Source of the DNA: Acidimicrobiales bacterium
GTDB taxonomy: Bacteria; Actinomycetota; Acidimicrobiia; Acidimicrobiales; Iamiaceae
Assembly: GCA_035547835.1 (NCBI GenBank)
Contig: DASZTW010000012.1
Coordinates: forward strand, 1-64,000
Direction: 5' to 3'
DNA length: 64,000 nucleotides
A program made the translations under genes and the position numbers. The notes beneath the pieces were generated by a model that saw only the letters and a list, made by a program, of their open reading frames with translations, had not been told where the DNA came from and ran no database searches. This document shows positions 611-28,521 of this stretch, one piece after another. The stretch's first letter is position 1, and each line of letters begins with the position of its first letter.

Positions 611-1285
611 TCACTTGTTGGTCGCAGCCCGCTGGGTGCCGGTGAAGGCGACGTTCAGCGTGGTGCTCAGGCCCTGGAACGTGTTGTCGGCCGTCTGCGG
701 GAGCGTGAACGTCGCCCGCAGGTAGTCCGAGGAGCCGGCGGTCAGCGAGCTGAGCCCGCTGAGTGCAGTGTTGGTGGTGAGGTTCGCCACCGGGGTCGAT
801 GCCAGCGCCGATGTGGTCGTGCCACCGCAGGTGTACGTGTACGCCGGCGCGGTCCCCGCTTCGACCCACGCCTGGCTGCACTTGTCGATCTGCAGCTGCA
901 GGCCGTTGACGGCATCGGTGTCGAGCTTGCTGCTGGTGCCGGCTGACGGCGTGACGGTTGCCGTCACGGACGCCATGTCCAGCGTGCCGGTGTTGTCGAG
1001 CTCGAAGCCTCGCTGGAACGTGTCGCCGGCAGCCAGGTTGGTGGCGCCGACGGCCAAGCGGTTGTTCGCCCCGAAGGTCAGCACGACGGTGCCCGAGCTG
1101 TCGGCTTGGGGACCGGCCGTGGTGGTGGAGGTGAACGTGCCGAAGGTCCCGAGTCCTGCGACCGCAGCCGCGGTCGCGAGGGTCGCGACGGTGGCGAGGA
1201 TCTTCCCGCGGCGGCTGAGGCCACGCCGCTTCCGGGCTCCGGGGTGGCCTCCACCGATGGTGTTGGATGCTTGGTGCACTGCCAT
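611..1285 (-). CDS. TasA/camelysin-like secreted protein with SipW-type signal
   Basis: A 224-residue exported protein. The chosen ATG at 1285 has an AAAGGA ribosome site 8 bases upstream; longer versions of the frame lack one and read as low-complexity Pro/Arg. The N-terminus holds a twin-Arg-like basic stretch (RRGK), a hydrophobic run and GTFGTFTST, the pattern of SipW-processed precursors. The remainder is Thr/Ser/Ala-rich beta-type sequence with two Cys, probably disulfide-bonded. In Bacillus such proteins form extracellular fibres or surface coats, but the role here is unknown. The signal peptidase follows after 8 bases. DosR-like boxes lie 206-294 bases upstream of the start. Confidence 0.75.
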   Translation of the reverse strand: MAVHQASNTIGGGHPGARKRRGLSRRGKILATVATLATAAAVAGLGTFGTFTSTTTAGPQADSSGTVVLTFGANNRLAVGATNLAAGDTFQRGFELDNTGTLDMASVTATVTPSAGTSSKLDTDAVNGLQLQIDKCSQAWVEAGTAPAYTYTCGGTTTSALASTPVANLTTNTALSGLSSLTAGSSDYLRATFTLPQTADNTFQGLSTTLNVAFTGTQRAATNK

Positions 1286-1711
1286 GGTTCGTGTCCTTTG
1301 CTTGGCAAGTAGGTCGCCCGGTCTGTCTTGCCGGACATCTCGATCGTCGGGGGTTTTCGGGGCGCGGCAAATGGCCCGCTCGGGTGGGGGCGGGTGGTGG
1401 GCCGGGTCCGCTGCCGGGCCGCCCGGCGGCCGGCGGGCTTCGATCCGCGGTCGGGCGTTCACCGCCCTCGCCTGGTGGGATCAGCCGTCAGGGACGGAAG
1501 TCCCGAGCCGACCCGGGACTTTCGTCCCGGTCGCTGCTGGCCCGTTCGGGCGCTGGGCACCACCCGGGACCTTTGACCCTTTTCGGTCCGTGTGACGGGG
1601 GAGTGCGCGGGTCGGCGGTGGCGAGCCAGCAGAGGTGTCCCGCGGTGGGACGATGTCGCTCCGGCGGCGCGGCGCGGACGCGGACCGCCCGGCGTCCCGG
1701 CAGCGGAGCGG
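1286..1711. other. 426-bp gene-free stretch upstream of the TasA-like gene
   Basis: No credible gene is seen between the TasA-like start (1285) and the cofE stop (1712). It holds the TasA-like ribosome site (rc of 1294-1299), a G-rich stretch around 1375-1440 and the DosR-like boxes listed separately. It should contain the promoter of the TasA-like/signal peptidase pair. Confidence 0.6.
1491..1579. promoter_or_regulatory. Three DosR/DevR-box-like sites
   Basis: Three 14-base sites follow the pattern GGGAC-N4-GTCCC: GGGACGGAAGTCCC (1491-1504), GGGACTTTCGTCCC (1515-1528) and the weaker GGGACCTTTGACCC (1566-1579). The known DosR/DevR core is GGGACTWWAGTCCC, and the middle site differs from it at one position. 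The first two also pair with each other as a 15-base inverted repeat (14 of 15) around an 8-base loop, so a plain hairpin is an alternative reading. They precede the TasA-like/signal peptidase pair and follow cofE. Control by hypoxia or redox state would be an inference. Confidence 0.5.
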
Positions 1712-2407
1712 TCAGCGGAAGAGGTCTTCGGCCGGTGGGCGGACGATCTCGTCGCGCACGTCGCCGCGCCGGAACCAGCCGGTGTCGACGCCGCGCACGA
1801 TGGCGACCGGCACGCCCGACGCCTTGCCCATCACCAAGTCGGCCGCGCCGGCGATCTCGTCGACGACGGCGACTTCGGTGGCCTGCAGCTCCCGGCCGCG
1901 GTCGTCGACCGAGCCGCGCAAGTCGAGGATGGGACCGATGCCGGCCGAGCCGATGGCGATGTCGGTGACGCCACGACGCCACGTGCGGCCGAACGTGTCG
2001 CTCACGATCACCGCGACCTCGACGCCCGCTGCTGCGCGGAGGCCGTCGCGGATGCGCCGGGCCGAGCGATCGGGATCGACGGGCAGCAACGCAGCCCATC
2101 CCTCGTCGACGTTGGACAGGTCGACGCCCGCGTTGGCGCACACGAAACCGTGTCTCGTCTCGACGATCACGAGGTCGCCGCGGCGTCGCAGCACCCGCAC
2201 GGACTCGGCCTCGATCACCGCGAGGCGCGACGCGGGGTCGTCGGGATCGACCGGCACCAGGCGGCCTTCGGCCTTCGACACGACCTTCTGGGTGACGACC
2301 ACCACGTCGCCGCCGCGGAGGTCGGCGGCGGCCGCGATGATCGCCGCCAGGTCGTCACCGGGGTGGATCTCCCCGATGCCGGTGACCGCGATGACCTCGA
2401 TCGTCAC
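1712..2407 (-). CDS. cofE: Coenzyme F420-0:L-glutamate ligase
   Basis: A 231-residue enzyme that adds gamma-linked glutamate to F420-0 using GTP. Family hallmarks visible include ITGIGEI-like VTGIGEIHPGDDL near the N-terminus, VVVTQKVVSKAEGR, FVCANAGVDLSN and VSDTFGRTWRRG. The GTG at 2407 is chosen because its bases overlap the cofD stop as GTGA and the conserved sequence starts there. The protein ends after the ligase domain; the C-terminal nitroreductase-like domain of mycobacterial FbiB is absent. It forms a two-gene unit with cofD and serves the F420-type LLM enzymes seen elsewhere in the window. Confidence 0.93.
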   Translation of the reverse strand: MTIEVIAVTGIGEIHPGDDLAAIIAAAADLRGGDVVVVTQKVVSKAEGRLVPVDPDDPASRLAVIEAESVRVLRRRGDLVIVETRHGFVCANAGVDLSNVDEGWAALLPVDPDRSARRIRDGLRAAAGVEVAVIVSDTFGRTWRRGVTDIAIGSAGIGPILDLRGSVDDRGRELQATEVAVVDEIAGAADLVMGKASGVPVAIVRGVDTGWFRRGDVRDEIVRPPAEDLFR

Positions 2408-3336
2408 GCCGCGTCCAACACGGTGCGGGCGAGGGTCGCAGCGGCTGCGGGGCTCGACATGATCGTGGGCGCCGCCACGCACTCGATGCCGGCGGCTTCG
2501 ACGTGAGGTGCCAGGGCGGCGTCGGCCTCGTCGATCACCAACGTGCGCGCCAGCGGGGCGTACAGGCGGGCGATGCCGACGACGGTGGGCTCGTGGCCGA
2601 GCTCGCGCAGCATGCGATCGGCGGGGCCTTTCAACGCCGCGCCGGCCACGATCGGCGACACCGCCACCGTGTCGGCGCGGCGGGCTTCGATGGCGGCACG
2701 GACCCCGTCGACGGCGAGCAGCGGGCCGATCGACACGATCGGGTTCGACGGCGCGATCACCACGCGATCGGCGGCGGCGATCGCGGCCAGCACGTCGGGG
2801 CCGGGCTTGGCGACATCGGCACCGTCGAAGCGCACCGCTGTGATGGGAACCTCGTGGCGGTGCTCGACGAAGTACTCCTGGAACGCCAGCTCGGTGGCCC
2901 CGCGGTCGAGGGTGACGGTGAGCGTCGTGCGCAGCGGGTCGTCGGTGACGGGCAGCAAGCGGAACCCGAGTTCCCAGGCCCGAGTGATCTCGGCGGTGAC
3001 CTCGGTGAGCGTGGCGCCCTCGGCGAGACGCCGGGTGCGGAACAGGTGCGTGGCGAGGTCGCGGTCGCCGAGGTTGAACCAGGTGGGCCCGCCGTAGCGG
3101 CCGAGCGCATCCATGGCCTGCCAGGTCTCGCCGGCGAGGCCCCAGCCGCGGTCGGGGTCGATGGCCCCGGCGACGGTGTACGTGACCGTGTCGAGGTCGG
3201 GGCTGATGTGCAGACCGTGGAGCTCGAGGTCGTCACCGACGTTGCCGATCACGGTCACGTCGCCGGCGGGGTGGACCTGCACCACCCCTGCCAGCAGCCG
3301 GGCCGCGCCCACACCACCGGCAAGCACACAGATCAT
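2404..3336 (-). CDS. cofD: 2-phospho-L-lactate (or phosphoenolpyruvate) transferase for F420
   Basis: A 310-residue CofD/FbiA enzyme joining the phosphoester side chain to the deazaflavin FO, giving F420-0 or its dehydro form. The N-terminal AGGVGAARLLAG nucleotide loop, GNVGDDLELHGLHISPDLDT and PSNPIVSIGPLL are characteristic, and the length is typical. It is the upstream member of the cofD-cofE pair, whose start and stop codons overlap by four bases. Whether it uses lactyl-GDP or the PEP-derived donor cannot be read from the sequence. Actinobacterial FbiA proteins generally use PEP. Confidence 0.94.
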   Translation of the reverse strand: MICVLAGGVGAARLLAGVVQVHPAGDVTVIGNVGDDLELHGLHISPDLDTVTYTVAGAIDPDRGWGLAGETWQAMDALGRYGGPTWFNLGDRDLATHLFRTRRLAEGATLTEVTAEITRAWELGFRLLPVTDDPLRTTLTVTLDRGATELAFQEYFVEHRHEVPITAVRFDGADVAKPGPDVLAAIAAADRVVIAPSNPIVSIGPLLAVDGVRAAIEARRADTVAVSPIVAGAALKGPADRMLRELGHEPTVVGIARLYAPLARTLVIDEADAALAPHVEAAGIECVAAPTIMSSPAAAATLARTVLDAA

Positions 3337-3390
3337 CCGCCGACGCTATCCCCGCGCCGACCCCCCGACCCCTCCCGACCCGCTTCTCCT

Positions 3391-3444
3391 CCATTCTGGG
3401 CTGCTTTTTACGCGTTGGGACGCGTCGTTTTCAGCCCAGAACGG
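3391..3444. repeat. 54-bp palindrome, family A copy 1
   Basis: Arms of 13 bases (left CCATTCTGGGCTG, right CAGCCCAGAACGG, 12 of 13 paired) enclose a 28-base loop that itself holds ACGCGT-TGGG-ACGCGT. It lies between the cofD start and the 3' end of the Ig-like gene. Three more copies with the same 13-28-13 spacing are at 28527, 48728 and 60415. Confidence 0.88.
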
Positions 3445-3445
3445 T

Positions 3446-3487
3446 GGGTCAGGCGGTGACGGGGGTCAGGCGTCAGGCGTCAGGCGT
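3446..3487. repeat. GTCAGGC short repeat running into a stop codon
   Basis: Four GTCAGGC heptamers occur here, three of them back to back. The TCA at 3480-3482, inside the last one, is the stop codon of the minus-strand Ig-like gene. Similar GTCAG arrays end other minus-strand genes near 31429, 46949 and 51111. Confidence 0.7.
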
Positions 3488-12233: not shown

Positions 12234-13453
12234 TGCGCATCGTGCTCATCCACCGCTACTTCGCGCCCGACACCCCGCCGTATGCACACATCCTGCGCGA
12301 CATCGCCCTCCGGCTCGGCGAGGATGGCCACGAGGTCACGGTGCTCACGTGTCAGCCCTCGTACAACCGTGCCGTCGTCGACCGCGCGCCGAAGGTCGAG
12401 CGGCTCGCTGACAACGTCACGGTGCGGCGATGGCCGGTGTTCGATGATCGGACGTCGGCACCGTTGAAGGCCCTCAACCTCGCCACCTTCTGCGTGCGGC
12501 TGTTGGCCAGCCGGGCCCGTCTCGGCAGGGTCGAGGTGATCATGGCCGCCTCGACGCCGCCGGTTGCGCCGGCGAAGGCGGCGTCCTGGTTGGCTCGCCT
12601 CTGTGGCGCGAAGTTCGTGTACCACAAGCAGGACATCTACCCGGAGGTCGTCACCGCCCCCGGGATGTTGCGGGCGGGGCGACTGGCCGACCTGCTGCGG
12701 CGGATCGACGCGCGCACGGAGCGGGCCGCCGCCGAGGTCGTCGTCTTGTCGAAGGACATGGCGGCGACGGTTCGGTCTCGGGGTGCCGGCGCTGAGCGAG
12801 TCGCGGTGATCAACAACTTCGATCCGTGGACCGGCGCGTCGCCGGCCGGCTCGGCCCGGCGCGAGCAGGGACGCGCACCGCTTCGCGTGGTGTTCGCTGG
12901 GAACCTCGGGCGCTTCCAGAACATCGAGGCGGTGCTCGACGCCATGGTGAAGGTCGGCGCCGATGACCGCGTGCGCCTCGACTTCCTGGGGGACGGAGCG
13001 TTGCGCAGTGAGCTGGAGGCCACCGTGGAGGCCCGCGGGCTGACGAACGTTTCCTTCCGCGGTTACCAGGCTCCGGAGGAGGTCGCCCGGGTGCTGCGGG
13101 AGGAGGCTGACCTCGGCGTTGTGTCCCTCGTCGCGGGGGTCATCCGCGCGGCATATCCGAGCAAGACGATGTCGTACCTGCGCAACGGCTGTCCGGTGCT
13201 CGCCCTCGTCGAGGCGGACTCCGAGCTGGCTCGAGCAGTTGTGGCCGCGGGTGCCGGCGTTCAGCACGATCCAGCCGACGCGGGTGGGCTGGCCGACCTG
13301 CTGCTGGAGCTGGCCGGGCGGCGCGACGAGTTGGCGGTGATGCGCGACCACGCGTTGGCCTTGTACCGCACCCAGTTCGACCCGCAGCTGCAGCTCGCGA
13401 AGTGGGCCGAGCTGTTCGCGTCACTCGACGGCGAGCGGGTTGGTGCGCCATGA
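12233..13453 (+). CDS. Family 4 glycosyltransferase (WbuB-like)
   Basis: A 406-residue GT-B fold retaining glycosyltransferase. The N-terminal MRIVLIHRYFAPDTPPYAHILR is typical of WbuB/GT4 enzymes, with YHKQDIYPEV and FAGNLGRFQNIE further on, and the donor-binding lobe near VLREEADLGVVSLV. In E. coli and Staphylococcus the gene after capEFG/fnlABC codes for the L-FucNAc transferase, so that is the most likely job. Acceptor and linkage cannot be read. Its start overlaps the capG stop by one base. Confidence 0.83.
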   Translation: MRIVLIHRYFAPDTPPYAHILRDIALRLGEDGHEVTVLTCQPSYNRAVVDRAPKVERLADNVTVRRWPVFDDRTSAPLKALNLATFCVRLLASRARLGRVEVIMAASTPPVAPAKAASWLARLCGAKFVYHKQDIYPEVVTAPGMLRAGRLADLLRRIDARTERAAAEVVVLSKDMAATVRSRGAGAERVAVINNFDPWTGASPAGSARREQGRAPLRVVFAGNLGRFQNIEAVLDAMVKVGADDRVRLDFLGDGALRSELEATVEARGLTNVSFRGYQAPEEVARVLREEADLGVVSLVAGVIRAAYPSKTMSYLRNGCPVLALVEADSELARAVVAAGAGVQHDPADAGGLADLLLELAGRRDELAVMRDHALALYRTQFDPQLQLAKWAELFASLDGERVGAP

Positions 13454-14169
13454 GGCCGGGCCGGGAGCACCGCACATTCGGTCGGGTCGTGGCCGGCGCG
13501 GCGCTGGTCGTGTCGAGCCCCGTGCTCGCGGCCGCCGCCGTTGCGGTGAAGTTGTCGAGTCGTGGCCCTGCGATCTATCGGGCCAAGCGCGTTGGACGCG
13601 GTGGCTCGGAGTTCACGATGTTCAAGTTCCGGACGATGCGCACCGCGCCGGCGGGCAGCGGCGGCCGCATCACCAGTGGTGTCGACCCCCGGATCTTCCC
13701 GGTTGGGCGCTGGCTGCGACGCCTCAAGCTCGACGAGTTGCCCCAGCTCGCCAACGTGGTCCGCGGTGAGATGGCCATCGTCGGGCCGCGCCCCGAGGAT
13801 CCAACGATCGTTGCCGACCACTACGCCCCGTTCATGCTCGAGACCCTCGAGGTGCTCCCCGGCCTCACGAGCCCGGGGAGTCTCCAGTACTACGCCGAGG
13901 AGGAAGGCGACATCCCATCGGACCCCGACCTGGCGGAGCGGCACTACGCAGAGGTACTGCTGCCGCGCAAGATCGCGCTCGACCTCGTGTTCGTGCGCAA
14001 TCGCTCGTGGCGTTACGAAATGGAGCTGATCGTGCGCACGGTCGCCTCGCTGTTCGGCATCCGGCGGCCGTTCGCCCGTCGCGCGTCGTGGGAGCGAGCG
14101 GAGGCCGACGCGATCTTGCGAGGCGTCAGCTCCGGCCCCGCCCCTTGGCCTGCGGCGGTGGGCGCGTGA
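13450..14169 (+). CDS. Initiating sugar-phosphate transferase (PglC-like, monotopic)
   Basis: A 239-residue enzyme that should transfer a sugar-1-phosphate from a UDP-sugar to undecaprenyl phosphate, starting each repeat unit. It has one N-terminal membrane helix (VVAGAALVVSSPVLAAAAV) and the core boxes FTMFKFRTM, FPVGRWLRRLKLDELPQL with the Asp-Glu catalytic pair, and VGPRPEDP. The size matches the minimal PglC form, lacking the extra helices of WbaP. The likely substrate is one of the UDP-amino sugars made upstream. Start overlaps the preceding stop as ATGA. Confidence 0.88.
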   Translation: MRPGREHRTFGRVVAGAALVVSSPVLAAAAVAVKLSSRGPAIYRAKRVGRGGSEFTMFKFRTMRTAPAGSGGRITSGVDPRIFPVGRWLRRLKLDELPQLANVVRGEMAIVGPRPEDPTIVADHYAPFMLETLEVLPGLTSPGSLQYYAEEEGDIPSDPDLAERHYAEVLLPRKIALDLVFVRNRSWRYEMELIVRTVASLFGIRRPFARRASWERAEADAILRGVSSGPAPWPAAVGA

Positions 14170-15047
14170 GCCCGCGACACGTGATCTTGATCGGCGCAGC
14201 CCGATCCGGGACGAAGATCGTTCGTGACACGCTGGCCGTCGCGACCGGCGCAGGAACCGTTCCATACGACATCGGTTACGTCTGGCGGGCCGGCAACGAG
14301 TCCGCACCCGATGACGTGCTGGAGCCGTCGCAGCTCTCCTCGAAGGCGCAGCAGTTCGTGGCGGGCTTCGTGGACGGCTATGCCGCGGGCGTCGTGCCGA
14401 CGGTGATCGAAAAGACCGTCGGCAACTCGCTTCGGGTGCCGTATGTCGCCAGCGCGTTTCCCGATGCGGTGTTCATCCACCTCATCCGCGACGGGGTCGA
14501 CGTCGCGGAGTCCACCCGGCGACAGTGGATCGCGCCCACCGACTGGCGTTACCTTGCGCGCAAGGCCCGCCACTTCCCGTTCCGTCTCGTTCCGGGCTAT
14601 GGCGTGCGCTACGCGCAGTCGCTGGCGAGTCGCGTACGCCGAACCGACCGCCGTGTCGGCTCGTGGGGGCCGCGGTACCCCGGCATCGACGAGGACTTGG
14701 CGAGCGAGGACTTGCTGGTGGTGTGCGGGCGCCAATGGAAGGCCTCGGTGCTGCATGCCCGCCAGGCCTTCGCCTCGCTCGACGTTCCGGTGCTCGAGGT
14801 CCGCTACGAGACGCTGGTGCGCGACCCCATGTCGACCATCAAGGAAGTCGCCGAGTTCGCGGAGTTGGCAGTCGGGTCCGACTCGTTGGGTCAGGCGGCG
14901 GCGAGCGTGACCAGCGCGCGCGTCGGCGCAGGTCGCCGTGCGCTCGAGGTGTCAGAGCGGGCGGCGCTCGGACGGGAGCTCGACCAGCTGCTCGACGTGT
15001 GCGGCTATGCCCGGTGCGGCGACGCCATGCAGAATGGCGTCGGATGA
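14166..15047 (+). CDS. Sulfotransferase family protein 1
   Basis: A 293-residue putative PAPS-dependent sulfotransferase. The 5'-phosphosulfate loop is VILIGAARSGTKIVRD (residues 5-20) and the 3'-phosphate box is FIHLIRDGVDVAESTRR (about 100-116). The presumed substrate is a hydroxyl or amine on the locus glycan. GTG 14166 overlaps the previous stop as GTGA. It is one of three unrelated-looking sulfotransferases in this operon. Substrate is unknown. Confidence 0.78.
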   Translation: MSPRHVILIGAARSGTKIVRDTLAVATGAGTVPYDIGYVWRAGNESAPDDVLEPSQLSSKAQQFVAGFVDGYAAGVVPTVIEKTVGNSLRVPYVASAFPDAVFIHLIRDGVDVAESTRRQWIAPTDWRYLARKARHFPFRLVPGYGVRYAQSLASRVRRTDRRVGSWGPRYPGIDEDLASEDLLVVCGRQWKASVLHARQAFASLDVPVLEVRYETLVRDPMSTIKEVAEFAELAVGSDSLGQAAASVTSARVGAGRRALEVSERAALGRELDQLLDVCGYARCGDAMQNGVG

Positions 15048-16992: not shown

Positions 16993-18126
<1,134 letters not shown>

Positions 18127-18130
<4 letters not shown>

Positions 18131-19002
18131 GCCCGGCACGCGCCGCTGTCGCCCCCCACCCCTTTGTCGTGGTCGGCGCGATGAAGTCGGGAACCACGAG
18201 CCTGTACACCTTGTTGCAGCTGCACCCGGCGGTCCGTGTGGTCGGCGACAAGGAGGCCGACCAGCTGTTCCGTGACGAGGGCGTGGCAGCGCTCGCGCGG
18301 GAAGTTGCTGCTCATCCGGAACATGCCTGTGGCGAAGTGTCGACCGCCTACATGCAACGACCGCTCAGAGAACCGCCGGTGGCGGCCGCACGGCGGGCGC
18401 TCAGCGACGGTGTTCGCGTCGTCGCGGTGCTGCGAGACCCGTTCGAACGGGCGGTGAGCCACTGGCGTCACTGGCGCCAGCTGGGCACCGAAGGTTCGGC
18501 GGCGTTCGAGCGGGCGGTCCTCGACCCCGCTGGCGAGTATGTCGCGTTCAGCAGGTATCACCACCAGCTGGCCCCGTGGATCGACGAGTTCGGGTCGGGC
18601 GCGGTGCATTGCATCCGGCTGGAGGACTACCAGTCCGATCCGGTCGCCATCGTCCGCAACCTGTGCGCGTTCCTCGGCGTTGATCCGGCGCCGCTCGTCG
18701 GCCTGGAGTCCCAGCGGGTCAATGCGGCGGAGTCTCGCTTGGTGGCGCGCGGGCCGGCCAGAGCCTTGTCCCGGTCGCCGTTGTATCGACGGGTGATCCG
18801 GCCCGTGGTGCCAGCTGCCGCCAAGCGTGCCGTCCTCCGGGTGGCTGGCGGTGCCGGCGGTCGGGAGGGGGCCCCGCATCCGGTCCCCGACACGAGGGTC
18901 CGGTTCTTCGAGCTCGTCGCCGACGATCTCGCCGAGTTGCACGCGCGTTGGCCCCACTTGCAGTGGGCTGCACCCGGAGGGCAAGGCGGGACAGGGCGGT
19001 GA
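18127..19002 (+). CDS. Sulfotransferase family protein 2 (heparan/GlcNAc type)
   Basis: A 291-residue sulfotransferase and the clearest of the three. VVVGAMKSGTTSLYTLL is a textbook 5'-PSB loop with Lys and Ser-Gly-Thr, and VVAVLRDPFERAVSHWRHW is the 3'-PB motif with the conserved Arg and Ser. CGEVSTAYM matches the NDST/Stf0-like middle region. These features favour carbohydrate sulfation. GTG 18127 overlaps the aminotransferase stop as GTGA. No cysteine/PAPS synthesis genes are in the window, so the donor must come from elsewhere. Confidence 0.85.
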
Positions 19003-20009
19003 GGCTCGAGTTCCTGTCGGCCACCGACGCCCTTCGCCGACCACCCGACGTGCCGGACATCTATTACACGGCGGGGTACGGGCTGACCGCGGAGCTCATC
19101 GACCGCGGCGTGTGGGAGTGCGCGGTCTCAGACGATGGGATGGTGTCCATGCCGTACCTCCGCCGCGACATTTGCGGCGGGCCGGAGTACGACATCGTGA
19201 GCCCCTACGGCTACGCCGGGGTAGCGGTGGCGTCGGCAGATCAGGCGGGGAGGCGCCGCGAGTTCCGTGCGCGCTTTCTCGACGCCTCACGCGAGCGCGG
19301 GCTCGTGGCCGAGTTCGTGCGGACCAACCCGCTGGATGTCGCCGAGCCCGACCTCGCCGACCTGGACGTCGGCACCGCGCGGCGTCACCGCACCTTTGCC
19401 GTGAAGGTGGGTGCGCATCCAGCCGCCTATTGGGACGAGACCGAGGGCCGCCATCGCACGGCCGTGCGCAAGGCCGAGCGGTCGGGTGTGGAAGTGATGG
19501 CGGGTCAGACAGACGAGCTGCTCGACGAGACGAGCGGCTTTCGGAGGATGTATCGCCACACGATGGAGCGCGTCGCCGCGGGGCGTCATCTTCGGCTGGG
19601 CACGCCGTACTTCCGGCGGATGGTCGACCACCTGCGCGACGACGTCCACCTGCTCGAGGCCCGCTTCGACGGGGAAGTGTGTGCGGCAGCGCTGTTCCTG
19701 AGTTGGAACGACCGCTTGCACTACCACTTGTCCGGCTCCACCGAACCCGGTCTCCGCCTGGGAGCGACGAATGCGATCCTCGACCGGGCAGTCCGCACGC
19801 TGCTGCGTCCGGGCGGCGTCCTCCACCTCGGTGGCGGGCTGCAACCCGACGATGGCCTCGAGCGGTTCAAGCGCTCGATCGCGACGGAGCAATGCTCGGT
19901 GTTCTTCTGCCAGACGGTGGTGAACGAGCGGCGCTACCGCGAGTTGGTCGAAGCGTCGGGCGCGCCCGAGAGCGGCTACTTCCCCGCGTATCGAGCCGAA
20001 GGGCGCTGA
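18999..20009 (+). CDS. FemAB/GNAT-like acyl- or aminoacyltransferase
   Basis: A 336-residue protein with the double-GNAT layout of FemAB/BioF2-like enzymes. The N-terminal half contains YYTAGYGL and a Tyr-rich loop; the second half has LLEARFDGEVCAAALFLSW, YHLSGSTEPGLRLGATN and LHLGGGLQPDDGLERFKRS, which match the C-terminal acceptor-binding part. In polysaccharide loci such proteins add an acyl or aminoacyl group to an amino sugar, which fits the adjacent aminotransferases. The true donor (acyl-CoA or aminoacyl-tRNA) is unknown. GTG start overlaps the previous stop. Confidence 0.72.
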   Translation: MRLEFLSATDALRRPPDVPDIYYTAGYGLTAELIDRGVWECAVSDDGMVSMPYLRRDICGGPEYDIVSPYGYAGVAVASADQAGRRREFRARFLDASRERGLVAEFVRTNPLDVAEPDLADLDVGTARRHRTFAVKVGAHPAAYWDETEGRHRTAVRKAERSGVEVMAGQTDELLDETSGFRRMYRHTMERVAAGRHLRLGTPYFRRMVDHLRDDVHLLEARFDGEVCAAALFLSWNDRLHYHLSGSTEPGLRLGATNAILDRAVRTLLRPGGVLHLGGGLQPDDGLERFKRSIATEQCSVFFCQTVVNERRYRELVEASGAPESGYFPAYRAEGR

Positions 20010-20011
20010 CG

Positions 20012-20950
20012 GTGTCCTTCCTCGACAAGTCCGACGACTTCGAGTCGTTCCTGAGTCTGTTGAACGACACCCTCGAGCCGGTGTTCGGTACCGCAGGCCC
20101 GACCGGCGACTCGCACACGTCGGTGCAGATCACCGGCCTGCCACGGACCGGCACGACGATCCTGTATCAGCTCCTCGCGCGAACCGGCTGCGTCGGCTAC
20201 GTCTCGAACCTCATGGCCTTCTTCTGGCGGGTACCGACTGTGGGCGCCACCCTGCAGCGCCAGCTGACCACCGGCGAAGTGACCCTGTCGACGTCGTCGA
20301 TGGCGGGTCGCACGGTCGAGCCCCTTGATCCGCACGAGTTCGGCTACTTCTGGCGCGCGGTGCTCGGCCATTCGGCGAACTCGATGGTCCGCGATTTGGA
20401 GCCGTGGCCCATCGATCGACTGCAGCAGGTGCTGGACGACGTGTCGAAGGTGTTCGGTGCACCGACGGTGTACAAGAACTTCCTGGTGCTGGCGCACCCC
20501 GACGAGATGTTCACCCTTCCGTCGGCGCGGTTCTTGGTCCTCGAGCGGCCAGCGATCGATGTGGCAGCCTCGCTGGTCGCGCTCGATCGGCGGGTCGGTG
20601 GTGCGGCGCCTGCCCGGCTGGGGCTGCAACCGGCGCCGGCCGAGCAGGTCCGTGACGGATCGTTGGTCGAACAAGTGGCACGCCAGGTCGCGGTGCTCGA
20701 ACGGGCGCGACGCCGTGCCGGTTTCGAGCGCCACCCGGCAGCGCTGGTCGTCCCTTACCGGAAGCTCTGCGAATCGCCACGCGAAACGGTCGGCGAGGTG
20801 CTCGAGTTCATCGGCGGAGACCTGCGCCAGCTCGACCCTGGCCGGTTGCCGGCATCGCTGACCCCCGGTGCGGGCGCCACCGACTTGGCCCCGGCCGAGC
20901 GGCGCGTGCTGCAACGGCTGCTCGACGAAGAGCTCGAAGGGGCGATGTGA
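20012..20950 (+). CDS. Sulfotransferase family protein 3
   Basis: A 312-residue sulfotransferase-family protein. VQITGLPRTGTTILYQLL (about residues 35-52) is the PAPS loop and RFLVLERPAIDVAASLVALD is the second box, with Glu-Arg-Pro in place of the usual Arg-Asp-Pro. The long insert between them resembles sulfotransferase_3-type proteins. GTG 20012 begins two bases after the upstream stop; the gene overlaps the following glycosyltransferase by four bases. The target is unknown but presumably the same glycan as for the other two. Confidence 0.75.
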   Translation: MSFLDKSDDFESFLSLLNDTLEPVFGTAGPTGDSHTSVQITGLPRTGTTILYQLLARTGCVGYVSNLMAFFWRVPTVGATLQRQLTTGEVTLSTSSMAGRTVEPLDPHEFGYFWRAVLGHSANSMVRDLEPWPIDRLQQVLDDVSKVFGAPTVYKNFLVLAHPDEMFTLPSARFLVLERPAIDVAASLVALDRRVGGAAPARLGLQPAPAEQVRDGSLVEQVARQVAVLERARRRAGFERHPAALVVPYRKLCESPRETVGEVLEFIGGDLRQLDPGRLPASLTPGAGATDLAPAERRVLQRLLDEELEGAM

Positions 20951-21996
20951 AGCGCCGCCGCGACATCAACTTGCTGGTGGTGGCGCCGGGCCTGACGAGC
21001 TCGGGTGGGATCGCTTTCGGCGAACGCCTCGTGAGCGAGCTCGAGGTGCAGCTCGGCCGCGAGGTCGGGCGGGCGGAGACGCCACGGCTCGGCCGTCTGC
21101 AGCTCGATCGGCACTCGGCCGGCGCCACGCATGTGCTGTTCCTCGGCTCCCGGGCGATCGAAGTGGCCGGAGCCCGCACCGTGCTCTGGCCGTTGAACGT
21201 GGCCCCCTTCGACGCGCGAACGGTCCACGCTCCGTCGTCGAGCGTGCAGAACCGGGCTCGGCACCGCCTGTTGCTCCACCGTCTGCGCCGCTCGGTCGGA
21301 TGTGTGGACGGCCTGGTGTTCGGCTCGCATTACGCACGGTCGCTGTACTTGGCGCGGTTCGCGGATGCCGCGACGATGCCATATCGCGTGATCCGCGGTG
21401 GCGCCCGCTCACTCGAGGTCGCCGACGGGACTGAGGGCCGACGCGACGGGGGCCTGATCCTGTGTGTGTCGCACCTCTATCCCTACAAGGGCATCTTGGA
21501 GCTGGTCGAGGCCGTTGCGATCGTCGACGCCGAGCTCCCGCCGGCGGTGACCGTTCGAATCGCGGGGGCGGATCGCGACCGTCGCTACGCCGCGGCCGTG
21601 CGCAAGCGGATCATGGACCGCGGGCTCGATCACCGCATCGAGGTGCGGGCGGCAACTGGTCCAGAGCTGCAGTCCCTCTATGCCGAAGCAGAGGTCGCGG
21701 TGTTCATGTCGACTTGCGAGAACGCGGGTTCGTTCGCGCTCTACGACGGGCTGCACGCGGGCTGCCCCACGATCTGCTCGGATCGATCGTCGATGCCGGA
21801 GATGGTCGAGGGGGCGGTTCGGCTCGTCAACCCGTTCGAGCCGCATGCGGTGGGCTCCGCCATCGTCGGGCTGCTGCGCGACCCGAGCGAGCGCCAGGTG
21901 CTCGCGGCCCGGGCGCAGGCCTGGTCGGCGAAGGTGCCGTCATGGGGCGATCGAGCCGCAGAGCTCATCGAGTTCTTCGAGGAGCTCGACGCGTGA
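20947..21996 (+). CDS. GT-B glycosyltransferase
   Basis: A 349-residue glycosyltransferase of the GT1/GT4 type. LLVVAPGLTSSGGIAFGERL is the N-terminal Gly-rich acceptor loop, LILCVSHLYPYKGILELVEAV the start of the donor lobe, and FMSTCENAGSFALYDGLHAGCP holds the usual EX7E-like nucleotide-sugar site. Together with the WbuB-like enzyme and the initiating transferase it gives only three visible sugar-transfer steps, so the repeat unit is short or further transferases lie elsewhere. GTG start, GTGA overlap on both sides. Confidence 0.82.
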   Translation: MKRRRDINLLVVAPGLTSSGGIAFGERLVSELEVQLGREVGRAETPRLGRLQLDRHSAGATHVLFLGSRAIEVAGARTVLWPLNVAPFDARTVHAPSSSVQNRARHRLLLHRLRRSVGCVDGLVFGSHYARSLYLARFADAATMPYRVIRGGARSLEVADGTEGRRDGGLILCVSHLYPYKGILELVEAVAIVDAELPPAVTVRIAGADRDRRYAAAVRKRIMDRGLDHRIEVRAATGPELQSLYAEAEVAVFMSTCENAGSFALYDGLHAGCPTICSDRSSMPEMVEGAVRLVNPFEPHAVGSAIVGLLRDPSERQVLAARAQAWSAKVPSWGDRAAELIEFFEELDA

Positions 21997-22778
21997 CCGC
22001 CCGGTCGAGGGCGCGGGCGTTCGGCCGGGGCATGGCGTTGGAAGCCGCGAGCGCTGCGTACCTGGTCGGCGGGCGCCACCGTCGTTCGCTCCGGGAGCCG
22101 GGTGCCATGGTGGTCCTGGTTCACGACACGCCGCCGCGCTCGCTCGCGTCGTTGGAACGGTTCGTTGTGCGACAGCGGGAGCGGATCGTCGACTACGCCG
22201 TGGCCGTGAACGCGGCGAACGGGTCTGGCTCGGCGGGGGCAGGGTCGATCGCACTCAGCTTCGACGACGGGTTCCTGAGCAACCGCGGCGCGGCCGAGAT
22301 GTTGGCGAGCCACGGTGTGTCGGCGGCCTTCTTCGTGCCGACCGGGGTCATCGGCGCGGCACCAGATGAAGTCGACCGGTTCTACCGGCGCCCCCAGCGC
22401 GAAGGTGTGATGGGTTGGGCCGACCTCGACCGGCTCGTCGAGCTCGGCCATGTGGTCGGCAGCCACTCCCGCGAGCACCGGCCGCTGGCGCAGATGAGCC
22501 TGGCCGAGGCCGAGGCACAGGTCTGCGAGTCGGTGGAACTGCTGCGCCGGCGCCTGGGCCGAGCTGACCACTTCGCCTGGCCGTACGGATCGCTCGCCAG
22601 CGCGCCGGTCGACCAGATCGTTCGCTGGTGTGGCGCTCTCGGCGTCACGCCGGCCTCGGGGGTGCGCGGCCGCAACGTCGCCGAGCGCTTCGCGCGAGAG
22701 GGCTACCTGCGGCGAGATCCCGTCGACCCGCTCCACTTGGCACGCGACCTGCGCGTCTTCATGAGTCGGTCTCGCTAG
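21993..22778 (+). CDS. NodB-fold polysaccharide deacetylase
   Basis: A 261-residue carbohydrate esterase family 4 protein. LSFDDGFLSNRG carries the catalytic Asp and metal-binding Asp, GSHSREHRPL the two metal His residues (HSxxH), and FAWPYGS the following family motif. It should remove N- or O-acetyl groups from the glycan. There is no clear signal peptide, though residues 20-35 are mildly hydrophobic. It is the last gene of the plus-strand operon, and its 3' end overlaps the convergent polymerase-flippase gene by 20 bases. Confidence 0.87.
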   Translation: MTARSRARAFGRGMALEAASAAYLVGGRHRRSLREPGAMVVLVHDTPPRSLASLERFVVRQRERIVDYAVAVNAANGSGSAGAGSIALSFDDGFLSNRGAAEMLASHGVSAAFFVPTGVIGAAPDEVDRFYRRPQREGVMGWADLDRLVELGHVVGSHSREHRPLAQMSLAEAEAQVCESVELLRRRLGRADHFAWPYGSLASAPVDQIVRWCGALGVTPASGVRGRNVAERFAREGYLRRDPVDPLHLARDLRVFMSRSR

Positions 22779-25700
22779 CGCGGCGGGCCCGAGGATTGGC
22801 TCGCCGGTAGGCGATCTGCCACGGCACCTGCCCGAAGGCGCTCACCAGGCCGAAGCCCCACGCCGCGCCTTCTGCTCCTGCGGTCACCGCGCCGATGGTG
22901 GTGCCGACCAGGAGGCAGACGCCGAGGAAGGACGCGACCCGGAGGATCAACTTGGGTTGCTGCACGGCCCGGAGGCCCACCCGTGGTCCCTGGTTCGCAC
23001 CCATGCCGGCCGCCCACAGCGCCGTAGGTATCAGCAGCTTCTTCGAGATGCCCCAGTTCTTGCCGGCGAGCAGGTGCCCGAGACGGGCGGGGAGGAAGTA
23101 GAGGCCCGCCGTGAACACGACGACGGTGGCGACGAGCGCGATGCTCAGGCCGGTGACGTACAGGTCCAACTGCCGGCCGCTGCGAGCCCGCAGCCGTACG
23201 GCCTCGGGCACCGCGAAGGCGATCGTCGCTGCGATCAACGTCGTCAACGGGGTCATGAGCGTTCGCGAGGCGCTGAGCTCGCCGAGCGCGCCGACGCTCA
23301 CGATGCCGCTCAACATGATGAGCGACAGGCGGCCCGCTGCCTGCTGGGCGAGCGTCTCCCCGGCAAGCCTCAGGCCGAGATCCTTGTGAGAGGTCAGCCA
23401 CCGCCACGCGCTTCGAGCGCCCGGGAGCACGCCGATCTGCACGATCCCCGCGATCAGACCAGCGCCAGTGCCCACCCCCCAGACGATCATGAGCACCGGG
23501 ACGGTCGGGTGGCCGTGGTGTACCACTGCGAGCGTCACCAGCCCGGTTGCGATCAGGCAGATGCCGTCGTTCGCGGCAGCGGCCCATGCTCGGCCTGACG
23601 CGAAGAGGTGGAAGCGCCAGGCGTCTTGCACGAGCAGCAGCGGCATGATCGCGGCGGCTGCAAGCACGATGAGGGCGGCGTGACGGGGAAGCAGTGGGAA
23701 GGCGAGCAGCGCCAGCGCGGTGGTGAGCAGCCCGAGTAGCAAGGACGCACCCGAGGCGCTCGCGGTGGCGCTCCGCCGGTCACGGTCGCCAGCCGCCGAG
23801 AACCGGATGGTGATCGGCTCGAGGACCAGCGACCGGACGGTCGAGAGCGCCAGCAAGCTGATCGTGTAAGCGAGCGTGAACTCGCCGATGCCGCCGACCG
23901 ACAGGTAGTGCAGCGCGGCGAACAGCACGACGAAGTTCTGCAGGCTGGAAAGCGCCTGGTCGACGATCGCGCCGGCGGCCCGGACGCCTGCCCCTCGCAG
24001 CATTCGCACCCCGCGCGCACGACGTGAGGGCTGCTGTCGGGACAAGCCGAGCTCCGGCGGCGGTCCGGTCGTGAAGTCGTCGAAGGACGCGATGGGCGCC
24101 ACGATCTCGTCCGGGATCGCGTCCGGCTCGTGCGGGAGGACCCGAACCTGCGGTTCCAGCCTGGGGCGGCGCGCCGCTCCGGCCGGTCGGTGCGGCCGGC
24201 CGCGGAACATGACGGGTTCGAGGGTGACGCCTTCTGGTGTCGCCGCCGGGCCGGAGGGCGCAGGGCGAAGCGCCGGCGGCTCGCGGTGCGGGGCCCGCGT
24301 CCGCGCACCGCCCGCGCGTTGGCGTCGCCGCTCGAGCGCGCGGGCACGGCGGCCGAGGAGGTACAGCGGTACGAGCAGCACCCAGGTCTGGAGGGCTTCG
24401 GTGAGCGCTTGACCGACGGAAACCCCGACGACGGCTTTGGCGAGCGTCAAGATGACCAGCGAGTAGAAGACGAGCGACGTCAGGTCGGTCGGATCGCGTG
24501 GGTACCACCGTCGTTCGGAGCGGCCGAGCAGGTAGCCGACGAGGATCGACAAGATCACCGCCGCTGGTACGCCGAAGTTCCAAACCAGCTCGCCGCTGAT
24601 ACCAGGGGGAACACCGCTCCGCCCCAGGTTGTACAAACGTTGGCCAATGATCGGCCCGGGAGTGATTACGGGTTTATTGGGCCAGATTGCCCGAGGGATT
24701 GGTGCGATGACGAGCGCCGCGATGGTCTTCCCATATTCATATGGGAGCGTAGATGGGACTGCATCAATGATTTTCAGCGTCTTGCTGAGGTCGTACGCAT
24801 TGCGATTGAGCAGTGCGCTGTCTAGCCCATACAGCACACCGGGATTGGAGTCGGCGGTACCTTTGCGTTGGGCGGTAAGGAAGCCGATTCCCAGTATGCC
24901 GACAAACAACACGGCGAGCACCGTCGTGGTTCGCAGGCGACCCCGAATCAGCACAATGACCACGACCACCGCAGCACCCACGTCGACCAAGTCGGCACGC
25001 GTGGTTGTGATGAGGTTGATCCCGAACCCATTGAGGAACAGGGCGCCCAGGATCATGCCTCGCATCATCCCAATCCGGGGCCGTGTCTGGAGCCAGTACG
25101 CGAACAACAGGATCGCGCCGATGGCGCCAGCCTTCGCCAGGAACTCCCAATGTCCGTACGACTGGATTCCGGCTTGCGCGGCTGTTGCATTTATGACCGT
25201 TCGACGGTTGCTGATCGACGCGCCGAGCCCGCCCACGCTGCGGTCGTAGGCGAGCGTGGCGGCGAGGCCGACGACCGCGTAGAGGCCGGCGATGAACAAG
25301 ATGGTTGGCTCGCTCAGGTCGCGCGCGTGCAACGACCACTTCCTTGGCGGTGGTGGGTCGGCGGTGCTCGAGCCGCGCGGAAGCGGCGGTCGGGACGCTA
25401 TCGACGCGACATAGCCGAATACGAGGGCGGCGATAGTCGCAATGGCGACGAAGGCCGGCCAAGCGAGACTCCCAAATGACGACCCCAACAGAAAGAGAGA
25501 ATCGATGACGTCACTGTTGGGGTAGTGGATTGCGATCATGACACCCCGGACGCCAGACCCGATGGTGATGACAAAACTGGCCAAGCCCCACATCGACAAG
25601 ATGGCCTGCTGTGGCAGCAGGAACGGAACTTGGGAAAGGGCGGTGCAGACGAGCCCGACTGCGGCGAACCCCCAGAGGTCTCCCCCCATGAGATAGGTGA

Positions 25701-25836
25701 TGAAGCAGCCAAGTGCTGCGAGCACCTCGACGGCGATGAGGCCAGCGACCCATTCGCGGGGGCGGTTGAGGGTGGGGCCCGGGGTGCTGGTTGAGGCGCG
25801 TCCCGTGGGCGGACTTGCCGAGAGGACGCTGGCCAT
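22759..25836 (-). CDS. Fused O-antigen-type polymerase and flippase
   Basis: A 1025-residue membrane protein in one uninterrupted frame. Residues ~30-485 hold about ten membrane segments and loops of the oligosaccharide repeat-unit polymerase type (LLNRNAYDLSKTLKIIDAVP, APIPRAIWPNKPVITPG). Residues ~485-610 are an Arg/Pro-rich, probably disordered linker. Residues ~615-1015 hold about twelve segments of a Wzx/MurJ-like flippase (LSSLQNFVVLFAALHYLSVGGIGEF, GRLSLIMLSGIVSVGALGELSAS). The two activities are normally separate proteins. The polymerase part is visibly less GC-rich than its surroundings. It is convergent with the glycan operon and divergent from the lipoprotein gene. Confidence 0.8.
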   Translation of the reverse strand: MASVLSASPPTGRASTSTPGPTLNRPREWVAGLIAVEVLAALGCFITYLMGGDLWGFAAVGLVCTALSQVPFLLPQQAILSMWGLASFVITIGSGVRGVMIAIHYPNSDVIDSLFLLGSSFGSLAWPAFVAIATIAALVFGYVASIASRPPLPRGSSTADPPPPRKWSLHARDLSEPTILFIAGLYAVVGLAATLAYDRSVGGLGASISNRRTVINATAAQAGIQSYGHWEFLAKAGAIGAILLFAYWLQTRPRIGMMRGMILGALFLNGFGINLITTTRADLVDVGAAVVVVIVLIRGRLRTTTVLAVLFVGILGIGFLTAQRKGTADSNPGVLYGLDSALLNRNAYDLSKTLKIIDAVPSTLPYEYGKTIAALVIAPIPRAIWPNKPVITPGPIIGQRLYNLGRSGVPPGISGELVWNFGVPAAVILSILVGYLLGRSERRWYPRDPTDLTSLVFYSLVILTLAKAVVGVSVGQALTEALQTWVLLVPLYLLGRRARALERRRQRAGGARTRAPHREPPALRPAPSGPAATPEGVTLEPVMFRGRPHRPAGAARRPRLEPQVRVLPHEPDAIPDEIVAPIASFDDFTTGPPPELGLSRQQPSRRARGVRMLRGAGVRAAGAIVDQALSSLQNFVVLFAALHYLSVGGIGEFTLAYTISLLALSTVRSLVLEPITIRFSAAGDRDRRSATASASGASLLLGLLTTALALLAFPLLPRHAALIVLAAAAIMPLLLVQDAWRFHLFASGRAWAAAANDGICLIATGLVTLAVVHHGHPTVPVLMIVWGVGTGAGLIAGIVQIGVLPGARSAWRWLTSHKDLGLRLAGETLAQQAAGRLSLIMLSGIVSVGALGELSASRTLMTPLTTLIAATIAFAVPEAVRLRARSGRQLDLYVTGLSIALVATVVVFTAGLYFLPARLGHLLAGKNWGISKKLLIPTALWAAGMGANQGPRVGLRAVQQPKLILRVASFLGVCLLVGTTIGAVTAGAEGAAWGFGLVSAFGQVPWQIAYRRANPRARRASETDS

Positions 25837-25960
25837 CCAGACAACTTACGCCTCTGCCAGGGCGCCGGGCCCGAGTTCTGTCTATCCGGGGTCAGGTGGC
25901 CGCCCCGCTGCCGGCGTGAACGAGGCTCGTCGCCGTGGGCCGGCGTGTACCGTCGTCGAG

Positions 25961-26734
25961 GTGTTCAGACGGTGCCCGCGCTCGCTGTGTGGTCGCCGCC
26001 GTTGGGTTGCATGCACAGGTGTGTTGGCGCTCATGCTGCTCGCCGCAGCGTGTGGGGAAGGGGGGCGTGGAGCCACGACCTCGACGGGTCCGACGGAGTC
26101 GTCGTCGACAGTGGACGAGGCGCTTGGCAGCGAGGCGGCATTGGGGTTTCCTCTGCTCGCGCTGGCCGACTTCGCCAAGTGGCCCGACGGTCCGGTCGCG
26201 CGGTTCGCGGGCGACGGCCACTACTCGGTGGCGGGGCCGTCGAAGATGAAGGTGGAGGGCGGGCGACTGGTCCTCCGCGACGCCGGGACGGTGCCGGCCT
26301 CGGCGTTCCTCGAGCACCGCGAGACCGTCGTGCCCCGTGTCGTGGCCGGCGACGCTGTCTTCTCCGGCGGTCGCACGTCTGCGGAGGAGTTCGTGCTGGT
26401 CAGCAGCCAGGCGAGCATCTCGGTGGCGTCGGTCCAGTTCTTCATCACACCGGACCGGTGGGCCCTGCTCACCGTCACGCGCGGCAAGCGGCACCGCGTG
26501 GCCCACGGCAAGTTTCGAGCCGTCTTGAAGCGCGACGGATCGACTCCCAACCGGATCGTCATGCGGATCGACCCTTCGACGTCCGTCGTGACGGTTCAGT
26601 ACCCAGGCGGTCAGGGCCACTGGCACGATGCCGACTTCGCCCGCTACTGGGGATCGCTGTTCAGCGTGCAGATCATCCGGCCCCACACCTCCGACGGCAC
26701 GGTCGCGATCTTGGGGACCGCCTCGGGTGCCTGA
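25961..26734 (+). CDS. Lipoprotein of the glycan locus, unknown function
   Basis: A 257-residue predicted lipoprotein. An Arg-rich start and hydrophobic run end in LLAAAC (lipobox, Cys about residue 31), then a Ser/Thr spacer and a single beta-rich domain (LADFAKWPDGPVARFAGDGHY; FFITPDRWALLTVT) reminiscent of a carbohydrate-binding jelly roll. GTG 25961 is chosen because the signal sequence starts there; the frame is open much further upstream without sense. It lies between the polymerase-flippase and the kinase, so a part in glycan export or display is plausible. Confidence 0.65.
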   Translation: MFRRCPRSLCGRRRWVACTGVLALMLLAAACGEGGRGATTSTGPTESSSTVDEALGSEAALGFPLLALADFAKWPDGPVARFAGDGHYSVAGPSKMKVEGGRLVLRDAGTVPASAFLEHRETVVPRVVAGDAVFSGGRTSAEEFVLVSSQASISVASVQFFITPDRWALLTVTRGKRHRVAHGKFRAVLKRDGSTPNRIVMRIDPSTSVVTVQYPGGQGHWHDADFARYWGSLFSVQIIRPHTSDGTVAILGTASGA

Positions 26735-26865: not shown

Positions 26866-28521
26866 GTGGACCACACTGACGATTTCGACCTCCGCGAGTA
26901 CCTGCGCGTACTGCGGCGGCGCCTGTGGGTGGCGGTTGTCTCCGTCATCGCGCTCGGCGTGCTCGCCGGCGGTCTGTCGAAGATGCAGACGCCCGTGTAC
27001 ACCGCGTCAGCGGACGTGCTCGTTCCCCAGCAGACAGCAGTGAGCCAGATCACCGCCGGCAATCAGGCCTCGCCGAACCCGCAGTACTTGCAGCGCAACA
27101 TCGACAACGCGCAGAAGTTCGCTTCGAGCGATGTGGTCAAGCGCGCGGCGGCCAAGGCCCTCGGCTACTCGGCGACGGCCAGCGTGACCGCGTCATCGAG
27201 CGCCGATCTGCTGACCTTCAAGGCCCACAGCACCAACAAGAAGAAGGCAGCGGCAGTTGCGAACGCGTACGCCAAGGCGTACATCGATGCCGACCGCCAG
27301 CGGCAGGTCGACGGTTACGCCGCGCAGAGCCAGGCCGTCAGCGCGACCATCACCCGGCTGCAGCAGCAGGCGGCGCCGCTACCTCCGGGCAGTGGCCCCT
27401 ACGAGAGCATCTCCAGTCAGATCACCCAGCTCCAACAGCTCCAGTCGAACCTCCAGGCCGCGCAACAGTTCAGTGCCGCAAACGGTGGCCAGGTGATCAA
27501 CGACGCCAAGGTGCCGCAGAACCCGTCGTCGCCCAAGGTGTTCCGCAACACGTTGCTCGGCGTTGCGCTCGGCGTGCTGCTCGGCATCGGTCTGGCGTTC
27601 CTCGTCGACCGCATGGACGATTCGCTCAAGTCGAAGGCCGACGTCGACGAGATCGCCGGCGACGTGCCACTGGTCGGCATGATCCCCGAGCTCCAAGGTT
27701 GGCGTGCCCGCTCCGACACCCACATCGCCACGCTCGAGAGCCCGCAGTCGGTCGTGGCCGAGTCGTACCGCACGCTGCGCACCTCGGTGCAGTTTCTCGG
27801 CATCGAGCACCCGTTGAACGTCATCGGCATCACCAGCCCCAACCCTGGCGAGGGCAAGACCACCACGCTCGCCAACCTGGCTGTCTCGGCCGCCAAAGCC
27901 GGTCTGCAGGTCGTGATCGTCGACTGCGACCTCCGCCGTCCCCGGGTGCACGAGTTCTTCGGGCTGCGCAACGACGTCGGATTCACCTCGGTGCTGCTGG
28001 GCGAGACGTCGCTCGGCGCCGCCTTGCAAGACGTCGAGGAGCAACCCCGGCTCCGGCTGCTCGCCTCCGGGCCCACGCCGCCGAACCCGGCCGAGCTGCT
28101 CAACGTCAGCCGGGTCGAACAAGTGGTGCGCGCCCTGGAGAAGACGGCCGACCTGGTGCTCATCGACTGCCCGCCGGTCGTGCCCGTCACCGACGCGCTG
28201 CTCATCTCCCACCTGGTCGACGGGATGCTGCTCGTGGGCTACGCGGGTCGGACCAACAAGCGCGAGTTCCACCGTGCACTCGAGCTGTTCGCCAGCGTCG
28301 ACGCCCCGCTGGCCGGCACCGTGCTCAACGCGGTGCCGAACAAGGGCGGCTACGGCTACGGCTACGGATATGGCTACGGCTACACGTACGGTTCCGAGCT
28401 CGACGAGAGCCGCCGCGCCCGCCGCCGGGCCCGCCGCCAGGCCTTCGAGGACGTCGTGGGCGACACCAAGTCCAACGGGAACGGTCAGCCCGAGGACGCC
28501 CGGCCCGTCTCGCGCACCTGA
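26866..28521 (+). CDS. Chain-length regulator and tyrosine kinase (Wzc/CapAB-like)
   Basis: A 551-residue polysaccharide co-polymerase. A Wzz domain opens with DLREYLRVLRRRLWVAV and the first membrane helix (~20-38); a second helix lies near residues 225-245. The BY-kinase domain has Walker A NPGEGKTTTLAN (~325), Walker A' VVIVDCDLRRP (~350) and Walker B LVLIDCPP (~430). The tail has a run of alternating Gly and Tyr (~495-510), the expected autophosphorylation cluster, then an Arg-rich end. The kinase and Wzz parts are joined as in Proteobacteria rather than split as in Firmicutes. GTG start. Confidence 0.9.
   Translation: MDHTDDFDLREYLRVLRRRLWVAVVSVIALGVLAGGLSKMQTPVYTASADVLVPQQTAVSQITAGNQASPNPQYLQRNIDNAQKFASSDVVKRAAAKALGYSATASVTASSSADLLTFKAHSTNKKKAAAVANAYAKAYIDADRQRQVDGYAAQSQAVSATITRLQQQAAPLPPGSGPYESISSQITQLQQLQSNLQAAQQFSAANGGQVINDAKVPQNPSSPKVFRNTLLGVALGVLLGIGLAFLVDRMDDSLKSKADVDEIAGDVPLVGMIPELQGWRARSDTHIATLESPQSVVAESYRTLRTSVQFLGIEHPLNVIGITSPNPGEGKTTTLANLAVSAAKAGLQVVIVDCDLRRPRVHEFFGLRNDVGFTSVLLGETSLGAALQDVEEQPRLRLLASGPTPPNPAELLNVSRVEQVVRALEKTADLVLIDCPPVVPVTDALLISHLVDGMLLVGYAGRTNKREFHRALELFASVDAPLAGTVLNAVPNKGGYGYGYGYGYGYTYGSELDESRRARRRARRQAFEDVVGDTKSNGNGQPEDARPVSRT

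Follow-up and report, generated by a model that had tools for sequence, protein, structure and literature searches.

A single reading frame joins a Wzy-type polymerase to a Wzx/MurJ-like flippase in an exopolysaccharide gene cluster of an Acidimicrobiales bacterium

A long membrane-protein gene in an exopolysaccharide cluster

The stretch of DNA analysed here (the window) comprises the first 64 kb of its contig. On its minus strand we found a gene of 1025 codons plus stop (22759..25836), which starts with an ATG at 25836, ends with a stop codon whose last base is 22759, and encodes 1025 amino acids in one uninterrupted frame. The original prediction had proposed a 1025-residue frame here, and it is indeed present, on the minus strand; the plus strand over the same interval is not open and has stops. 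Codon-usage log-odds favoured the frame nearly throughout (mostly +9 to +27 per 50 codons) and were clearly negative in the other two frames. A few segments scored low (residues 126–175 and 351–425), with this frame still ahead there. The gene is single copy in the whole genome (3.70 Mb, 22 contigs). At its 5' end the gene overlaps a predicted plus-strand ORF (25697–26734) that matches no Pfam family and probably has its true start further downstream.

The gene sits in an exopolysaccharide cluster. On the plus strand, an initiating sugar-phosphate transferase (Bac_transf, Pfam 5e-47) is located at 13402..14169, a group 1 glycosyltransferase (Pfam 7e-16) at 20947..21996, and a polysaccharide deacetylase (Pfam 1.6e-15) at 21462..22778; the 3' end of the deacetylase gene, whose true start is probably downstream of its first GTG, shares 20 bases with that of the fused gene. 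The divergent neighbour on the other side (26866..28521, plus strand) encodes a polysaccharide co-polymerase that combines a Wzz domain with a P-loop kinase-like one (Pfam Wzz 1e-11, CbiA, AAA_31). An initiating transferase, a glycosyltransferase and a Wzz/Wzc-type co-polymerase, the set by which a Wzx/Wzy-pathway cluster is recognised, are thus all present. Around the fused gene we also identified sugar dehydratases, a UDP-GlcNAc 2-epimerase, two DegT aminotransferases, a GNAT/FemAB-like protein and sulfotransferases. The three sulfotransferase-like genes (14007–15047, 17851–19002 and 18827–20950) suggest a sulfated polymer or a sulfated modification. No other TM-rich Wzx or Wzy candidate was found in the 64-kb window, although the contig begins not far from the cluster, and others could lie elsewhere.

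The two membrane domains and the linker

The N-terminal half (residues 1–495; 24352..25836, minus strand) is a Wzy-like protein with about 12 predicted TM segments and a large predicted outer loop. It matched TIGR04370 over residues 127–465 with an E-value of 2.9e-9 and 36.4 bits, below the curated cut-off of 40; across searches its scores were 36.4–38.5 bits (E 3e-9 to 7e-10). A Pfam search gave no match. The same family was matched by 10 of the 12 aligned relatives, and the closest of the relatives, a Wzy from a genome of the same order (G438; 29% identity over 353 residues), passes the cut-off with 69.6 bits. In the alignment, two motifs common to distant members (PxPRxxW and GExxxNFG) are intact as PIPRAIWPNKP and GELVWNFG, and both fall in the predicted outer loop (residues ~322–417). 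By an approximate hydropathy count, both termini and the linker would be inside and the conserved loop outside; the predicted inside position of the linker agrees with the start of the flippase. The TM borders are likewise approximate, being taken partly from a poor model: AlphaFold, run on a two-row alignment, gave a pLDDT of 37, unusable for testing a GT-C-type fold, and a profile search of solved structures with this half gave no relevant match. Taken on its sequence, the assignment of residues 1–495 to a Wzy-type repeat-unit polymerase is well supported, and the polymerase half of the original prediction finds its backing in the TIGR04370 match and in relatives of the same family.

The two halves differ in composition, with 63% G+C (GC3 0.77) in the polymerase half and 70% (GC3 0.88) in the flippase half, against 71% in the window. 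The lower G+C of the polymerase half may reflect foreign origin.

The C-terminal half (residues 612–1025; 22762..24003, minus strand) was modelled by AlphaFold from 37 sequences with a pLDDT of 91.7. WzxE, which flips lipid III, was its best structural neighbour (Z 33, rmsd 3.8, 391–393 residues), followed by a MATE transporter (Z 30; MATE proteins overall Z ~20–30) and MurJ (Z 23–26), so that the model and its structural matches give a MOP fold of 12 or more helices. No Pfam match was obtained for this half and no NCBIfam match for it or for any of 36 relatives; the clade is outside the coverage of the curated models of these collections. Since a profile of the clade also had no match among the sequences of solved structures, the identification is one of fold. 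On the strength of the model, a MOP-superfamily flippase of the Wzx/MurJ type, as originally proposed, is well supported for residues 612–1025. Judged by the fold alone, a MATE-type exporter may also be compatible; taking the predicted fold together with the gene cluster, the substrate would be an undecaprenyl-PP-linked sugar. WzxE depends on a group of clustered arginines within its C-terminal tail (PMC11706664). The fused protein has an Arg-rich C-terminal tail and ends in YRRANPRARRASETDS, which is basic like the tail of WzxE.

Between the two halves lies a linker (residues 496–611; 24004..24351, minus strand) that is Arg/Pro-rich (23 K+R, 12 D+E and 20 P), has 78% G+C and is predicted to be cytoplasmic. 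The original prediction had described an Arg/Pro-rich linker of ~125 residues, in agreement with the 116–130 or so found. By codon usage, residues ~501–550 appear non-coding in all three frames, and from residue ~551 the frame is coding-like through to the flippase. The non-coding-like stretch is what would be expected of a recent fusion that reads through the former polymerase end and an intergenic stretch, and also of an artefact. The linker is stop-free in all three frames; in frame +1 the closest stops on either side are codons 463 and 761, and in frame +2 they are codons 387 and 685. Since 57% of simulated linkers of the same composition were open in frame, an open linker by itself proves little at such a G+C. 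The fusion in the sequence is nevertheless confirmed as real, because two different, independently recognisable and coding-like membrane domains share one frame without a stop.

Separate, adjacent and fused relatives

In the search of the family, the flippase half was found in 8 of 24 genomes (its own included), and outside the present gene never in frame with a polymerase. The polymerase half occurs less often, in 5 of 397 genomes from the order, again including its own. We examined 125 distinct flippase relatives from larger draws from the order and the phylum and from 80 public-genome loci. None had a TM-rich part upstream in frame, and only one had such a part downstream in frame. The fusion of a polymerase followed by a flippase is therefore rare and, since no relative has the same fusion, conservation of the fused state cannot be demonstrated.

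The nearest flippase relative (G150, 47% identity) is a stand-alone gene; ~3 kb away, the opposite strand carries a distantly Wzy-like gene. The second closest, at 43% (L096, from Acidimicrobiia SJ788), directly follows a gene for a 12-TM protein with which it shares a TGATG overlap; the upstream protein has a weak Wzy_C match (E 1.6e-4, below the cut-off). In G438, the gene of the closest polymerase shares an ATGA overlap with the next gene, whose product is a flippase remotely homologous to the fused flippase half (hhalign 92.7%, E 4e-7). Five further flippases (L047, L048, L186, L195 and L205) have a TM-rich gene on the same strand ~17–285 bases upstream, and another (L170) has one at ~340 bases. 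Among these upstream genes, that of L048 alone passes the Wzy_C cut-off and that of L195 matches weakly; for L186, L205 and L047 there was no family match. Adjacent polymerase–flippase pairs are thus a minority arrangement among the relatives, yet they show the gene order that allows fusion.

Several other long frames were considered as fusions and rejected. Flippase frames of up to 1321 codons occur in Streptomyces, Amycolatopsis, Pseudonocardia, Frankia and others; these are not fusions, since the part upstream of the flippase shows no more than one predicted TM segment and those inspected were wrong-frame sequence. Wzy frames of 910–992 codons (L071, L074 and L077) were likewise rejected as flippase fusions. 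The L071 frame runs on into an extra C-terminal part. L074 (G041:C35) and L077 (G463:C11) are Wzy_C-type frames of 910–964 codons that look as if they run on into a Wzz/BY-kinase-like co-polymerase, Pfam confirming the Wzy_C part only.

The one downstream case, in G499 (L187 and L206; G499:C21, 5505–8909), has the two functions in the reversed order. Here a flippase of the same clade continues in frame into a tail of at least 500 residues, for which 13 TM segments are predicted and which matches the Wzy_C polymerase domain (PF04932, 7e-15, over the cut-off). The sequence GGAGGTG stands a few bases before the first Met of the tail, which may also be translated separately, and the other frames are stop-free at this junction as well. 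The reversed fusion is an independent event, so that, provided both assemblies are correct, polymerase and flippase have fused on at least two occasions, with each order represented. Two further members of the flippase clade are fused to glycosyltransferases: in L045 (G325, 1216–3462) the flippase C-terminus is joined to a WecG/TagA/CpsF glycosyltransferase (PF03808, 4e-60), and in L204 (G529:C70, 1150–3927) the partner is a group 1 glycosyltransferase. The clade is prone to fusing with pathway neighbours.

Interpretation and comparison with known systems

The explanation that we consider probable is that the gene encodes one functional protein in which a Wzy polymerase and a Wzx/MurJ-like flippase are tethered 1:1, derived by fusion of adjacent, co-oriented genes. 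Such a protein would have an N-terminal Wzy-family polymerase of about 12 TM segments, its two termini cytoplasmic, and a C-terminal MOP-fold flippase for lipid-linked oligosaccharides, with a flexible linker in the cytoplasm tethering the one to the other. The flippase half would turn over lipid-linked repeat units made by the glycosyltransferases of the cluster; the polymerase half, held alongside in a 1:1 ratio, would link them together on the outside, and the Wzz/kinase-like co-polymerase encoded next door would determine chain length. As to origin, a polymerase gene and a flippase gene next to it, downstream on the same strand and arranged as in the overlapping pairs of a few relatives, would have become one when the polymerase stop was lost and reading continued in frame into the flippase; the fusion would be recent. 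We infer a single polypeptide in the cell with both activities, as well as its substrate, an advantage in hand-over and the stop-loss route; fixed 1:1 stoichiometry of flipping and polymerisation, as originally suggested, would be a fair expectation.

Three other explanations were weighed. The frame could yield two products, with full-length protein and a free flippase, restarted at M612 or nearby, occurring as a mixture in the cell. The ATG of M612 (24001..24003, minus strand) aligns with the Met start of a stand-alone flippase (L009), a GGGG lies five bases upstream, and the predicted anti-SD pairing (-5.6) is comparable with that of some of the window's probable starts; moreover, the GGAGGTG of the reversed fusion makes internal starts plausible in such proteins. 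However, the GGGG is a weak to modest signal with no GGAGG, the pairing is similar to that of several other internal codons of the fused gene and weaker than that of the better starts of the window, and coding-like codon usage begins ahead of M612. A restart thus seems unlikely, and since no stop releases the polymerase half, that half would be fused whether or not M612 is used.

Alternatively, the two genes may be ordinary separate ones, with the fusion created by a sequencing or assembly artefact in the form of a miscalled linker stop. This would fit the separate genes of the relatives, the high G+C and partly non-coding-like sequence of the linker, and a fusion that lacks confirmation from a second genome. 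The original prediction had named a sequencing error hiding a stop or frameshift in the linker among the findings that would overturn it. A frameshift error is excluded: an indel cannot hide a polymerase stop there, because the alternative frames are stop-free too. A base substitution is the sole type of error that could mask one. The linker holds 21 single-base neighbours of stop codons, but a substitution error hitting exactly the stop codon is rare, and the same two functions are fused, independently, in G499; we regard an artefact as improbable. Hardly more probable, in our view, is a recent accident of stop loss, which would have left a fused protein that is produced with one half inactive, or a cluster in decay. 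The single genome with the fusion and the non-coding-like stretch agree with such an accident, whereas both halves retain coding-like codon usage and family motifs, and the window offers no other wzx or wzy candidate.

The wider meaning of a tethered, functional protein lies in the question of contact between Wzx and Wzy and of their ratio, which is unsettled for the commonest of the bacterial polysaccharide pathways. Contact between Wzy and Wzz is described in a 2025 review, which leaves the stoichiometric interplay among the proteins of the pathway to future work (PMC12004945), and a two-hybrid study in Rhizobium raised the speculation that flippase and polymerase are connected through the co-polymerase (PMC4182512). 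We found no published Wzx–Wzy fusion in the open-access literature, which does not prove that none exists. A natural fusion, together with a second one in which the order is turned round, provides genetic evidence that Wzx and Wzy are close to each other, and the two opposite orders suggest that the two machines work side by side. On balance we lean slightly towards a further reading, in which the protein is a bifunctional flippase–polymerase that hands each flipped unit directly to the polymerase, is one of at least two independent fusions of opposite order, and reflects Wzx–Wzy contact in ordinary systems. If this is true, Wzx and Wzy would be in direct contact there too. The fused protein would also provide both functions as a single construct, and its structure could reveal how a flipped lipid-linked unit is handed over.

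Among known proteins, the polymerase half resembles TIGR04370 members in its match over residues 127–465 and in the signature loop motifs, and differs in scoring slightly under the curated 40 bits (36–38) and in being fused to a flippase. The flippase half shares the MOP fold with MurJ (Z 23–26 over ~385–405 residues), but the match is poorer than that to WzxE, the domain has 415 residues against the longer chains of MurJ, it lies in an exopolysaccharide cluster, and it has no match to a MurJ family model. In L045 and L204 a neighbour in the pathway is likewise joined to a flippase of this family, there a glycosyltransferase and not a polymerase. The G499 fusion, from another family of the same bacterial order, also carries both functions in one frame; it differs in its opposite domain order, in a polymerase of another family (PF04932) and in a strong internal ribosome-binding site. 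With the Wzx/Wzy-dependent pathway (for example WzxE and WzyE of E. coli) the locus shares a MOP flippase, for which WzxE is the best fold match, and a repeat-unit polymerase, both in a cluster that also encodes an initiating transferase, glycosyltransferases and a Wzz-like co-polymerase. That the two are separate proteins in known systems, as originally stated, fits all our findings except the reversed fusion; in contrast to the known pair, the gene described here carries both in one frame of 1025 codons.
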